Positions 2,350 to 12,762 of a stretch of 34,478 nt of DNA are shown here, piece after piece; position 1 is the stretch's first letter, and each line of letters starts with the position of its first letter. The stretch is from the NCBI RefSeq assembly GCF_030604225.1, contig NZ_JAUVWH010000016.1:1-34478 (forward strand). Reading direction: 5' to 3'. Origin of the DNA: Geoalkalibacter sp. (GTDB taxonomy: Bacteria > Desulfobacterota > Desulfuromonadia > Desulfuromonadales > Geoalkalibacteraceae). Below the pieces are notes generated by a model, which saw nothing but the letters and a program-made list of their open reading frames with translations, was not told where the DNA came from and searched no databases. The translations under genes and the position numbers were made by a program.

Positions 2350-2365
2350 TGGCACGACCCTTGCT
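2350..2365 (+). promoter_or_regulatory. Sigma-54 (-24/-12) promoter, perfect consensus
   Basis: TGGCACGACCCTTGCT matches TGGCACG-N4-TTGCW at every defined position, with GG at 2351-2352 and GC at 2363-2364. The start of transcription should fall near 2375. It lies about 190 bp downstream of the sigma-54 activator stop codon. The rest of the 380-bp gap (2163-2349) shows no convincing gene, only short inverted repeats such as CGGGC/GCCCG at about 2303-2317. Confidence 0.85.
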
Positions 2366-2374
2366 TGCCAGAGG

Positions 2375-2467
2375 AGTACATGTTGGGGCCCGAAACTTTT
2401 CAAAACGAAACGCAGACCCGCCCCTTTACGCCGCACCGGGACCTCTCTCCCCCGGGCGGCGTTTTTT
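2375..2467 (+). ncRNA. Candidate sigma-54-dependent small RNA
   Basis: A transcript from the sigma-54 promoter would start near 2375 and meet a strong intrinsic terminator at 2428-2467, giving an RNA of about 90 nt. A 5' domain can close through GGGGC (from 2384) with GCCCC (near 2425). A 42-codon frame from ATG 2380 has its GAGGAG motif at the predicted transcription start and runs through the terminator stem, so a coding role looks less likely. Alternative: this is an attenuated leader for ptsP, whose start lies 76 bp past the terminator. Confidence 0.55.
2428..2467 (+). terminator. Intrinsic terminator upstream of ptsP
   Basis: ACGCCGC-A-CCGGG pairs with CCCGG-GCGGCGT, a 12-bp GC-rich stem with one bulged A, followed directly by seven Ts at 2462-2468. 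Confidence 0.85.
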
Positions 2468-2542
2468 TATCGCCATCGGCGGCGCGCTCCGTTAATATAG
2501 GGCATTGATTTTCCACTTCTCCCACGTGGTCTTCCAGGCACT

Positions 2543-4915
2543 ATGAGCCCAACCTCCAGACAAAATCCCGGCAAGGATCAGTTCGGCATCACCACGCTGG
2601 AGGACATCAGCGCCCTCATTCTTCAGTCGCACGACCTCGACGACACCCTCAACAACATCGTCGCCCTGGTTTCACGCCGCATGCGCACCGAGGTGTGTTC
2701 CATCTACCTGCTCGAGGAGGACGGCCACACCCTGCGCCTGCGCGCGACCAAGGGCTTGTCACGCCGCGCGGTGGGCAAGGTGGTGATGAGAATCAGCGAG
2801 GGCTTGACCGGCCTTGCGGTGGAGCAGGGCCGCGTGGTTTCGATTCTCGAGCCGCAGCATCACCCGCGCTACCGCTATTTCCGCGAAACCCGCGAAGAGC
2901 GCTTCCACTCTTTTCTCGGCATTCCGCTGTTCGACCGGAGAAACCCCATCGGCGTCATCACCATCCAGACCGCCGAACCGCGCCAGTTCAGCAGCGAGGA
3001 AATCAGCGCCCTCTCGACGATTGCCTTTCAGGTGGCGTCCATCGTCATCAACGCGCGCCTGCTTGATTCCATCCGCCAGAAGGAAGAGCAGGCCAATCGC
3101 GTGGTGCAGGAACTCGAACAGACCCGCCAGACCCTGCGCTCTCCCAAGGTCGATGTCGACAACGGCAACCGCAACGGCTATCACGCCCTGCGAGGCGCCA
3201 TCGCCTACTCCGGCGTCGCCATCGGCCCGGCCAATCTGCTCGACGAGCGCCTGGGGCTCACCGATATCGTCGACGAGGCGGATATCGACCCCGAGGACGA
3301 GCGCCGCAAGCTCGAGGATGCCCTGGAAAAAACCCGCATCCAGACCCTGTACCTCGAAAAGCAGATGGCCGAACGGCTATCCGCCGATGACGCCGCGATT
3401 TTTCATACCCATCTGATGATCCTGGAAGATCGCGGGTTCATCCAAAAGTTGCTCGCCGAGATCGAACAACGCCATCACTGCGCCGCCTACGCGCTGAAAA
3501 CCGTGGTCAGCGCCTACGTCGAGGCCTTCGGCCGCATGGAGGACGCCTACCTGCGCGAGCGCGCCGCCGACATGGAAGACATCGGCCGGCGCATTCTCGG
3601 GCATCTGATGGGCAATCAGGCCCAACCCCTGCAGCTGAAGAATCCCGGAATTCTGGTCGCCCGGGAACTGCTCCCCTCGGACATGGCCAGCCTGGAGCCG
3701 GAAAAAATCCTGGGGATCGTCACCGAGGTCGGCGAGAAGAATTCCCACGCCGTCATCATGGCTAAGTCCATGGGCATCCCCGCCCTGGTGGGCGTCAAGG
3801 GGCTGCTCAAAATGGTGGCACCCGATGAAAGCCTGATTCTCGACGCCAATTCAGGCACCCTTTACATCAATCCGCCCCCCCAGGTCAGCGAGGAGTTCCA
3901 GAGGCATGACGCCGACCGCCGCCGCGAAGGCCAGCGCTTCGAGGAGTACCGCGAACTTCCGGCCTTTACCGCCGAGGGCGAGGAAATCAAGCTGCGCGCC
4001 AATATCGGCCTGATTGGCGATGTTGCCATCGCCCTGCGCAACGGCGCCGAGGGCGTGGGCCTTTACCGCACGGAATTTCCCTACATGGCGCGCGGCGATT
4101 TCCCCGACCGCGAGGAGCAATACCAGCTTTATCGCCGCATCGTCGAAGAGTTCGGTGGCCGGCCCGTGACCATCCGCACCCTGGATATCGGCGGCGACAA
4201 GGCCCTGCCCTACTTCGCCCCGCCGCGCGAGGACAACCCGTTCATGGGTTGGCGCTCGGTGCGGGTGTGCCTCGACCATCGCGACATCTTTCGCACCCAG
4301 ATCGAGGCGATCCTCATGGCCGGCGCCCATGGGCCGGTCAAACTGCTCTTTCCGATGATTTCCAGCATGGATGAGATTCGCGCCTGCAAGAGCCTGGTCA
4401 CCGAGGCGTACAAACGCCTGCGCGCCGAAGGCATCGCGACCGCGGAACGGATCCCCCTGGGCGTGATGATCGAGGTTCCGGCCGCGGCCTACCTGGCGGA
4501 GCGCCTGGCGGGGGAGGTCGAATTCTTCGCGCTGGGCACCAACGACCTGATCCAATACCTGCTGGCCGCCGATCGCAACAATCCCCTGGTCGCCAAGTAT
4601 TTCGATCCGCTGCACCCGGCGGTGATCGGCATTCTCGGGCAGCTCGCGCGCATCGCCCGCAAACATCGCATCGGGCTGTGCCTGTGCGGCGAAATGGCCA
4701 CCGATCCGGTGCACATGGCCCTGCTGCTGGGCCTGGGCATCCGCGAGTTTTCCATGGCGGCGCCCTTTATTCCCCGCATCAAAGCCTTTGTTCGCCACAT
4801 CACCCTGGCGCAGGCGGAAAAAATCGCCCGCGACGCCCTCAGCCTCACGGAAGGCCGTCTCATCCGCGAGCACGTTCGCCAGGCCCTCTGCGCCCTCAAC
4901 ATCACCGAAATCTGA
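2543..4915 (+). CDS. ptsP: PTS-Ntr enzyme I (GAF domain + PEP phosphotransferase)
   Basis: The 790-residue protein has the enzyme I(Ntr) layout. An N-terminal GAF domain spans about 20-175, a short coiled linker follows, and the PEP-utilising enzyme I core runs to the end. The phosphorylatable histidine is H402 in GEKNSHAVIMAKSMGIPALVG, and the catalytic cysteine is C715 in CGEMATDP. The TIM-barrel motifs GVGLYRTEF (about 504-512) and GTNDLIQY (about 665-672) are intact. In this family PEP is used to phosphorylate NPr and then EIIA(Ntr), linking carbon, nitrogen and potassium status. No ptsO or ptsN lies in the window. The ribosome-binding site before the ATG is poor. The gene sits 76 bp past an intrinsic terminator, so it either has its own promoter or is reached by read-through. 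A bidirectional terminator ends it. Confidence 0.95.
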   Translation: MSPTSRQNPGKDQFGITTLEDISALILQSHDLDDTLNNIVALVSRRMRTEVCSIYLLEEDGHTLRLRATKGLSRRAVGKVVMRISEGLTGLAVEQGRVVSILEPQHHPRYRYFRETREERFHSFLGIPLFDRRNPIGVITIQTAEPRQFSSEEISALSTIAFQVASIVINARLLDSIRQKEEQANRVVQELEQTRQTLRSPKVDVDNGNRNGYHALRGAIAYSGVAIGPANLLDERLGLTDIVDEADIDPEDERRKLEDALEKTRIQTLYLEKQMAERLSADDAAIFHTHLMILEDRGFIQKLLAEIEQRHHCAAYALKTVVSAYVEAFGRMEDAYLRERAADMEDIGRRILGHLMGNQAQPLQLKNPGILVARELLPSDMASLEPEKILGIVTEVGEKNSHAVIMAKSMGIPALVGVKGLLKMVAPDESLILDANSGTLYINPPPQVSEEFQRHDADRRREGQRFEEYRELPAFTAEGEEIKLRANIGLIGDVAIALRNGAEGVGLYRTEFPYMARGDFPDREEQYQLYRRIVEEFGGRPVTIRTLDIGGDKALPYFAPPREDNPFMGWRSVRVCLDHRDIFRTQIEAILMAGAHGPVKLLFPMISSMDEIRACKSLVTEAYKRLRAEGIATAERIPLGVMIEVPAAAYLAERLAGEVEFFALGTNDLIQYLLAADRNNPLVAKYFDPLHPAVIGILGQLARIARKHRIGLCLCGEMATDPVHMALLLGLGIREFSMAAPFIPRIKAFVRHITLAQAEKIARDALSLTEGRLIREHVRQALCALNITEI

Positions 4916-8685: not shown

Positions 8686-10008
8686 TCAGCGCAACTTCTG
8701 CGAGCCCTGGCCGAATTCAGGATAAGCCTCCAGGCCGAGTTCGGCGGTGTCCGAACCACTATGCTCTTCCTCGGGCGACACGCGGATGCCGATGGTGTAT
8801 TTCATGGCCAGCCAGACCCCGGCGCTCAAGACCGAGACGAAGGCGCCCACGGAAATCACGCCGATCAGCTGGGTGAGAAAGCTGGCCTCGCCGTCGGTGA
8901 AAGGAACCGCCAGCGTTCCCCAGATGCCGCACACCAGATGGACCGACAGGGCGCCGACCACGTCATCGATTCTGAGCTTGTCGAAGAGGGGGACGGCCAG
9001 CACCACCAGTACGCCGCCAACCGCCCCGATGAGCACCGCCGCGCCGGGCGAGGGGGTGGCGGGTCCGGCGGTGATGGACACCAGACCGGCCAGGGCACCG
9101 TTGAGGGCCATGGAGAGGTCGACTTTCTTGTAGATGATCTGCAGGGCGATCATGGCCGCGACGATGCCGCCGGCCGCCGCCAGATTGGTGTTAAGGTAGA
9201 CCACGGACATCTCGACGACCGCCTCGACGGAACCCAGGGCCAGCACCGAGCCGCCGTTGAAACCGAACCAGCCCAGCCAGAGCACGAAGGTGCCGAGGGT
9301 CGCCAGGGGCATGCTCGAACCAGGGATGGGATTAACGCGCCCTCCCGCTCCGTACTTGCCCTTGCGCGCGCCGAGAATGATGGCACCGGTCAGGGCCGCC
9401 CAGCCGCCCACCGAGTGCACGATGGTCGATCCGGCGTAGTCGGAAAAGCCCATTTCGTCCAGCCAGCCGCCGCCCCAGCTCCAGGCGCCCTGAATGGGAT
9501 AGATGATGCCGGTGAGAACCACGCAGAACAGCAGAAAGGGCCACAATTTGATGCGCTCGGCCACGGTTCCCGAAACCACCGAGGCCGCCGTGGCGACGAA
9601 CACCATCTGGAAGAACCAGTCGGAGCCGCTGGCATAGCCCGCCGAGTAATCACCGGCCAGAGCCGCCGCGTCATCCGGCGCCCAGAGGCCGAAGCTGCCC
9701 AGGAAACCGCCGTCCACGCCGCTGTACATGAGGTTGTAGCCGATCAGGTAGTAGAGAATGCCGGCGATGGAGTACAGCGAGATGTTCTTGAGGCAGATGG
9801 TGGCGACGTTCTTGCTGCGCACCATGCCGGCTTCGAGCATGGCGAAACCGGCCGCCATCCACATGACCAGCGCGCCGCTGACGAGAAAGGAAAAGCTGTT
9901 GAGGATAAAGGCGATGTCCGTGACCGGCGCCTCCTCCTCGGCCAGGCCCAGGGTCGGAAGAGCGAGCACCAGCAGAGCCGCGGCGATGATGGACAATGTT
10001 TTTCTCAT
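8686..10008 (-). CDS. amtB: Ammonium transporter
   Basis: The 440-residue inner-membrane protein begins with a cleavable signal peptide (MRKTLSIIAAALLVLALPTLGLA), as many AmtB proteins do. About eleven membrane spans follow. Family motifs are clear: GTVAERIKLWPF, YPIQGAWSWGGGWL, DYAGSTIVHSVGGWAAL with the first pore histidine, and LSVHLVCGIWGTLAVP with the second. The cytoplasmic tail is acidic (SPEEEHSGSDTAELG). The start has GGAGG well placed. It moves ammonium under nitrogen limitation and is gated by binding of the PII protein encoded 60 bp upstream. Expression should follow the sigma-54 promoter and antitermination leader ahead of glnB. Confidence 0.96.
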   Translation of the reverse strand: MRKTLSIIAAALLVLALPTLGLAEEEAPVTDIAFILNSFSFLVSGALVMWMAAGFAMLEAGMVRSKNVATICLKNISLYSIAGILYYLIGYNLMYSGVDGGFLGSFGLWAPDDAAALAGDYSAGYASGSDWFFQMVFVATAASVVSGTVAERIKLWPFLLFCVVLTGIIYPIQGAWSWGGGWLDEMGFSDYAGSTIVHSVGGWAALTGAIILGARKGKYGAGGRVNPIPGSSMPLATLGTFVLWLGWFGFNGGSVLALGSVEAVVEMSVVYLNTNLAAAGGIVAAMIALQIIYKKVDLSMALNGALAGLVSITAGPATPSPGAAVLIGAVGGVLVVLAVPLFDKLRIDDVVGALSVHLVCGIWGTLAVPFTDGEASFLTQLIGVISVGAFVSVLSAGVWLAMKYTIGIRVSPEEEHSGSDTAELGLEAYPEFGQGSQKLR

Positions 10009-10068
10009 GACGAAACCTCCGAAGGATAGATCGGGTTGCAAGACAAACCCGGGAAAATCAGACTCTTG

Positions 10069-10602
<534 letters not shown>

Positions 10603-12569: not shown

Positions 12570-12762
12570 AAACAAGCCACTCTCTGCCCTACAGGTGAGG
12601 TCAAGAACGCCCACGCGGAATAATTTTTTCTCGGGATCTCCTCTCGTGATGCTGTGAGCCAGCCCGCCCCGTAGCGGGACGCCTGATGTGTCGCCCGGAG
12701 AACCCACCTTTTTGGTTCTCGTTGTGAGGCCAATGTCCCACGGTAGGCGTGGAGAGGGCACA
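12570..12762 (+). ncRNA. ssrS: Structured RNA of about 190 nt, 6S-like
   Basis: A strong promoter and a terminator bracket a 190-nt stretch with no credible gene. The ends pair: CTCTC (12580-12584) with GAGAG (12752-12756), GCC with GGC outside it, and GCC/TAC (12586-12592) with GTAGGC (12743-12748). An inner stem joins TTCTCGGG with CCC-G-GAGAA, enclosing a CCCGC/GCGGG hairpin. On the 3' side GAGAACC and GGTTCTC form a hairpin resembling in position the CCUUGAACC hairpin of E. coli 6S RNA. Size, paired ends, an internal bubble and that hairpin fit 6S RNA, the RNA-polymerase-binding regulator. SRP RNA, tmRNA and RNase P signatures are absent. The symbol is tentative. Confidence 0.5.

Follow-up and report, generated by a model that had tools for sequence, protein, structure and literature searches.

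A short intergenic stretch in a Geoalkalibacter contig is proposed here to encode an H2- or redox-controlled small RNA that blocks translation of citrate-cycle genes, as the RNA counterpart of HgtR, a protein of Geobacter; we give this reading a probability of roughly 0.7. An outline of the proposed process is as follows: an enhancer-binding activator (bEBP) that includes a [FeFe]-hydrogenase domain of the sensory type would bind palindromes located between its own gene and that of the RNA and, once activated, with H2 or a reduced redox state as the most likely trigger, would turn on a sigma-54 promoter. The product would be a trans-acting RNA of about 93 nt, in which a 5′ hairpin is followed by a terminator hairpin exposing the loop CUCUCUCC. 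This loop would pair with the Shine-Dalgarno sequence GGAGAGAG of gltA, mdh and other genes of the citrate cycle and of hydrogen and energy metabolism, and pairing at this sequence would block their translation, so that cells using H2 would slow acetate oxidation. In the Geobacterales, the same bEBP and the same slot appear to carry a gene for an HgtR-like repressor, the product of which would lower citrate synthase under H2.

The window, that is, the whole stretch of 34,478 nt that was analysed, includes the bEBP gene near its start (27–2162, + strand), the 5′ end of which is lost at the contig start. Its product has a [FeFe]-hydrogenase H-cluster domain (Fe_hyd_lg_C), an Fe-S domain, a sigma-54 AAA+ domain and a Fis-type HTH (Pfam PF02906, PF04060, PF00158 and PF02954). 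The full-length homologue in genome G001 has, by eye, an extra N-terminal two-[4Fe-4S] ferredoxin-like stretch ahead of the H-cluster domain. Also by eye, what we take to be the four H-cluster cysteine ligands are retained (SSHCP, SSCIAGKFE and CEGGC) and nearby catalytic residues are altered, a residue pattern that fits a sensor. No assigned target of the hydrogenase-like bEBP in Desulfuromonadales was found in the literature searched. The downstream neighbour, outside the RNA unit, encodes a ptsP-like PEP-utilising enzyme with a GAF domain (2543–4915, + strand), and the unit itself lies in the intergenic region between the two genes. Elsewhere in the window (8686–10446, − strand), a gene for an ammonium transporter was seen by eye next to one for a P-II (glnB-like) protein.

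The first-pass annotation had pointed to a consensus −24/−12 element followed by a terminator with a 12-bp stem and seven Ts, with no credible gene between them, and both parts of this description stand. The promoter TGGCACGACCCTTGCT (2350–2365, + strand) is the single match to TGGCAC-N5-TTGC in the window, where dinucleotide shuffles give an expectation of 0.08, and it is kept in orthologous loci: in the 30 loci fetched first, the element lies 87–109 nt 5′ of the loop, the variants being one GGGCA and one CGC at −12. The 5′ end of the RNA would lie about 12 nt 3′ of the −12 element, giving a predicted RNA of about 93 nt (2375–2468, + strand). Could the region encode a leader peptide instead? 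The frame opened by the ATG at 2380 runs across the terminator, and this ATG is missing in many orthologous loci, so that this candidate was rejected.

The predicted RNA folds at −34 kcal/mol with a z-score of −2.6 (RNAfold, 2375–2468) and consists of two elements. The 5′ hairpin P1 (2385–2424, + strand) is formed by GGGGC at 2385–2389 and GCCCC at 2420–2424 around a variable hairpin, and of 58 homologues 57 form its stem, with varying pair composition, in their minimum-energy folds. The terminator (2428–2468, + strand) comprises the hairpin at 2428–2462 and the T-run at 2462–2468; its parts are CGCCGC-A-CCGGG (2429–2440), the loop ACCTCTCTCC (2441–2450), CCCGGGCGGCG (2451–2461) and the seven Ts, and RNAfold draws it as a 12-bp stem, interrupted by a single bulged A and closed by a 10-nt loop. 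Across the alignment 95.9% of the cells of this stem are paired, 38 cells are doubly changed (11.6 in shuffles) and the covariation score is 0.217 (0.115 in shuffles, and lower in slid versions), a result that leans towards structure because the alignment was fitted to the model. The bulge and the long loop probably explain why a simple terminator scan of the window did not detect the hairpin at 2428–2462. All 29 aligned sequences share the loop core CUCUCUCC without change, and the stretch CTCTCTCC (2443–2450, + strand), the putative seed, is the complement of GGAGAGAG in the ribosome-binding site of gltA and of other candidate targets.

How widely is this unit conserved? Of 58 related genomes, 38 gave a match to a DNA query of 161 nt. 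A covariance model (CM) was then built from 29 sequences and searched in 277 genomes of the class, where it found the RNA in 88, with exactly one copy in each, all of them among the 136 sampled genomes of the window's own order. The window copy matches at 2375–2469 with 85.1 bits, a score to be read with the fact that this copy belonged to the training set of the model. Malonomonas rubra, Geothermobacter hydrogeniphilus and many Desulfuromonadales MAGs are among the carriers, and no report of the RNA was found in the openly licensed papers searched. The earlier suggestion that an RNA of about 90 nt is made from the sigma-54 promoter under the upstream H-cluster activator called for a promoter-terminator pair kept beside activator orthologues, and within the order this check bore it out. 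Among the contigs found by pattern search, 39 loci have enough flanking sequence to be compared; in 38 of them the bEBP gene lies directly upstream on the same strand, ending 200–700 bp before the loop, the exception being Geothermobacter. The RNA and the bEBP occur together in 80 of the 136 genomes of the order, the RNA alone in 8 and the bEBP alone in 7.

In a few genomes one partner stands alone. The RNA was found without a detectable bEBP in G012, G015, G029, G035, G040, G043, G090 and G122. In five of these (G012, G015, G029, G035 and G043) an oligopeptide-transporter ATPase-like gene stands before it and ptsP after it, in G043 with an additional ORF between the RNA and ptsP; the same transporter ATPase-like gene stands 5′ of the bEBP gene in G001, and the five loci have the appearance of a loss of the bEBP gene. 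No −24/−12 element was found at the RNA locus of G015. Family f4 accounts for six of the seven bEBP-only genomes, in which the bEBP match is weaker (E about 1e-90); in the remaining one, G036, there is a divergent RNA preceded by a −24/−12 element. In G090, the match is a terminator hairpin with the loop AACUCUCUCC that lacks a sigma-54 promoter and lies just before another gene (C47:10154-10244); it may be a 3′-UTR-derived relative.

Candidate binding sites of the bEBP accompany the promoter. Of 68 loci, a count in which some species were entered twice, 65 have a palindrome TGTGCCA-N4-TGGCACA, matched at no fewer than 11 of its 14 positions, 5′ of the promoter, compared with about 8.4 in shuffles; the other three loci belong to G035 and G043, both without a detectable bEBP. 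The 34-kb window holds three matches of at least 11/14, two of which lie between the bEBP gene and the promoter: TGCGCCAATCGCGGCACA (2181–2198, 12/14) and CGTGCCAGATTCGACACA (2257–2274, 11/14), candidate enhancer sites to which no strand is assigned. Distances from palindrome to promoter are periodic, with a spacing of close to 11 bp (R 0.61), the relatedness of loci being ignored in this estimate. The locus combines a promoter at a conserved distance, an adjacent bEBP with candidate sites and a conserved structure ending in a terminator, and a conserved RpoN-driven sRNA under this bEBP is very probably real.

What would such an RNA act on? The first target pattern, GGGAGAGAG-N2-10-ATG, yielded no recurrent real gene, because the conserved sites read AGGAGAGAG. 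The loop, and not gltA, supplied the 8-mer GGAGAGAG, and the search with a pattern based on this 8-mer preceded any inspection of gltA; the gene surfaced when it was tested as a target of HgtR and surfaced again in an unbiased scan with the 8-mer. All 20 RNA-bearing genomes compared have GGAGAGA in the gltA ribosome-binding site, and 18 of them have the whole of GGAGAGAG there. At the same site the motif is found in 0 of 14 Geobacterales, 0 of 4 RNA-lacking f4 genomes and 0 of 1 for G021. For mdh, GGAGAGA is present in 17 of 19 RNA-bearing genomes versus 1 of 8 others, and at other predicted starts, with gltA and mdh removed by hand, in 4 of 176 (about 2%).

The unbiased scan, for GGAGAGAG-N3-7-ATG in five genomes with the genes annotated by NCBIfam and Pfam, gave 8–25 sites in each. 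The genes at these sites include gltA in all five genomes, malate dehydrogenase (two), aconitase B (acnB), isocitrate dehydrogenase (icd), succinate-CoA ligase alpha (sucD), fumarase, succinate CoA-transferase and NuoL (nuoL), together with the NiFe hydrogenase large subunit (two, one of them in the window's genome) and a DASS-family symporter (two). The binomial tail for citrate-cycle enrichment is about 1e-17 for 12 hits and about 2e-9 for 7 of 35 once gltA is left out, the denominators being estimates (about 40 real genes listed, 0.6% citrate-cycle genes per genome) and the genomes being related; these target statistics ignore phylogeny, and the seeds are only 7–9 bp. In the window's genome, G000, duplex energies for the loop are −15.2 kcal/mol with gltA, −11.8 with mdh and −18.6 with the hydrogenase, the background averaging −9.3 (sd 3.4). 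As regards base-pairing with mRNAs, what can be read directly from the genomes is the conserved complementarity at gltA and mdh; the citrate cycle is a quite probable target of the loop, and repression of translation would come about by occlusion of the Shine-Dalgarno sequence. Enolase, suggested by a match in G002, was rejected as a target, since no conserved complement was seen by eye at eno starts in 20 genomes. A loop complement was also noted at the start of a phosphoglycerate mutase gene in G037.

The same sites invite another explanation, namely that the RNA is a real RpoN/bEBP-dependent sRNA with its main action elsewhere, such as protein sequestration or other mRNAs, and that GGAGAGAG at gltA and mdh merely reflects a clade-specific Shine-Dalgarno preference. 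GGAGAG is a serviceable Shine-Dalgarno sequence and, as this core is common to several Geobacterales gltA sites, it is the final one or two bases that separate the two groups. In addition, six f8 genomes (g46 and g27) keep GGAGAGAG at gltA without a detectable RNA, a more sensitive search of f8/g46 genomes having given no convincing copy, and G161, without the RNA, has the motif at mdh. However, the heptamer occurs at few other starts and the 8-mer at few sites per genome, yet citrate-cycle genes stand out among them, and the 8-mer was taken from the loop. Furthermore, the motif is missing at gltA as well as at mdh in the RNA-lacking f4 genomes G008 and G054 and in the RNA-lacking G021, and HgtR, encoded in the same slot of the sister order, also lowers gltA. 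We regard a main action elsewhere, with a mere ribosome-binding-site preference at gltA and mdh, as unlikely, though it is the explanation that fares best after the pairing of the RNA with citrate-cycle mRNAs. Two f8 loci (L262 and L271) have tandem hairpins, with a loop of the CUCUCUCU type followed by one of the CCUCCUCC type and a T-run after the second; this double hairpin is possibly another anti-Shine-Dalgarno RNA.

The comparison with Geobacterales bears on the RNA from a different side. In 18 of 19 fetched Geobacterales loci (the exception being L108), a gene for a ribbon-helix-helix protein of 57–62 aa, MGRMRENPRYNVISMRISDEER..., stands shortly after the bEBP gene and is preceded by the palindrome and a TTGGCAC-type −24/−12 element. 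An HgtR-like gene is found in 135 of the 141 genomes outside the window's order, all Geobacterales, and the CM search found the RNA in 0 of these 141; within the window's order, the HgtR-like gene gave one weak match, in G026 (5.5e-9). Apart from this weak match, the RNA and the HgtR-like gene are mutually exclusive in the genomes compared. By its position, the Geobacterales slot gene is taken to be hgtR: Leang et al. report that in Geobacter an EBP gene is located 5′ of GSU3364, for which an RpoN promoter is predicted (PMC2725144), and GSU3364 is HgtR, which is induced by H2 and lowers citrate synthase (PMC7894505). HgtR also acts on atpG and nuoA (PMC7726332). The two loci are alike in the orthologous bEBP, the position after it, the palindrome and the −24/−12 element, but unlike in their products and mode of action, a ribbon-helix-helix protein repressing transcription on one side and an RNA of about 93 nt predicted to repress translation on the other; in RNA-bearing genomes the ribbon-helix-helix gene went undetected except for the weak match in G026. 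We lean, with less assurance than for the RNA or its targets, towards a protein-RNA swap, in which the same bEBP, palindromes and position would drive HgtR in the Geobacterales and the RNA in the Desulfuromonadales, both shutting down citrate synthase and the citrate cycle, at promoters in one case and at ribosome-binding sites in the other.

The first-pass annotation had also entertained the RNA as an attenuated leader of ptsP; on this reading a sigma-54 transcript would stop at the terminator unless a signal allows read-through. The arrangement in the window invites this reading, as ptsP starts only 74 nt past the T-run on the same strand, and ptsP lies within 700 bp downstream of the RNA in 31 of the 39 loci. 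However, in the other 8 loci ptsP is absent or kilobases away, and the RNA is kept, nearly always with the bEBP; the linkage is therefore not constant, which makes a ptsP attenuator unlikely. The terminator stem is strong in all the predicted folds, which contain no competing anti-terminator, and the loop is conserved beyond what a terminator needs and matches the gltA ribosome-binding sites. Altogether the leader is very improbable, and the annotation's alternative is given up in favour of a trans-acting RNA.

Does the RNA belong to a known family? No Rfam family scores above threshold at the locus. The nearest are the atoC RNA (RF01733, 17.9 bits), ar14 (RF02344) and sX13 (RF02232), and membership in the last two was rejected, their scores being 15.7 and 13.6 bits where 58.8 and 50 are required; their C-rich loop in the terminator hairpin, in alphaproteobacteria and Xanthomonas, respectively, resembles that of the window RNA (seen for ar14 in the alignment). 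The idea that the RNA is a divergent copy of the atoC RNA can be set aside as highly improbable, for although the weak match is full-length and both RNAs end in a terminator hairpin with a pyrimidine-rich loop and neighbour the same bEBP family, in Geobacterales in the case of the atoC RNA, the score is far below the 50-bit gathering threshold, the atoC RNA lies upstream of the bEBP gene and the window RNA downstream, and the same genome has a separate above-threshold atoC RNA with a sigma-70-like start by eye. That separate copy lies at C68:3657-3749 of G000 with 53.5 bits, away from the bEBP. In several f23 and f24 Geobacterales genomes the atoC RNA is found about 280 bp upstream of the same bEBP gene, and in some f22 and g72 genomes without a detected bEBP it is directly 5′ of an hgtR-like gene; the Geobacterales atoC loci considered (L076-L087, L092, L096-L103, L393 and L394) have a sigma-70-like promoter by eye. 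The sole above-threshold Rfam match in the window is a 6S RNA (RF00013) at 12578–12759 (+ strand), with 83.8 bits.

The regulatory set-up of the proposed trans-acting RNA has parallels in other bacteria. The Qrr sRNAs of Vibrio, one of which is encoded beside luxO, are short, are driven by LuxO and RpoN and pair with mRNAs, in an Hfq-dependent quorum-sensing circuit of gammaproteobacteria; the window RNA would likewise be a short RpoN- and bEBP-driven sRNA, responding to another signal. The cbrAB and crcZ genes are also adjacent, and CrcZ is several hundred nt long and titrates Hfq/Crc through CA motifs, whereas the window RNA is short and is predicted to pair with mRNAs. CrcZ and CrcY of Pseudomonas and Azotobacter are RpoN-dependent sRNAs under the bEBP CbrB and serve carbon metabolism (PMC6292655). 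The sibling sRNAs of Neisseria act on central carbon metabolism, with gltA among the genes discussed (PMC5362039); they belong to another organism and setting, and the window RNA would be controlled by a hydrogenase-like bEBP.

If the proposed H2-responsive block of citrate-cycle translation is true, the Desulfuromonadales, which are common in anoxic sediments, would gain a switch, open to testing, that sets whether H2 or acetate serves as electron donor, and a hydrogenase-like regulator would gain a predicted regulon. The slot behind the bEBP gene would then be a candidate natural case in which a regulatory RNA and a regulatory protein occupy one and the same place and do the same job.
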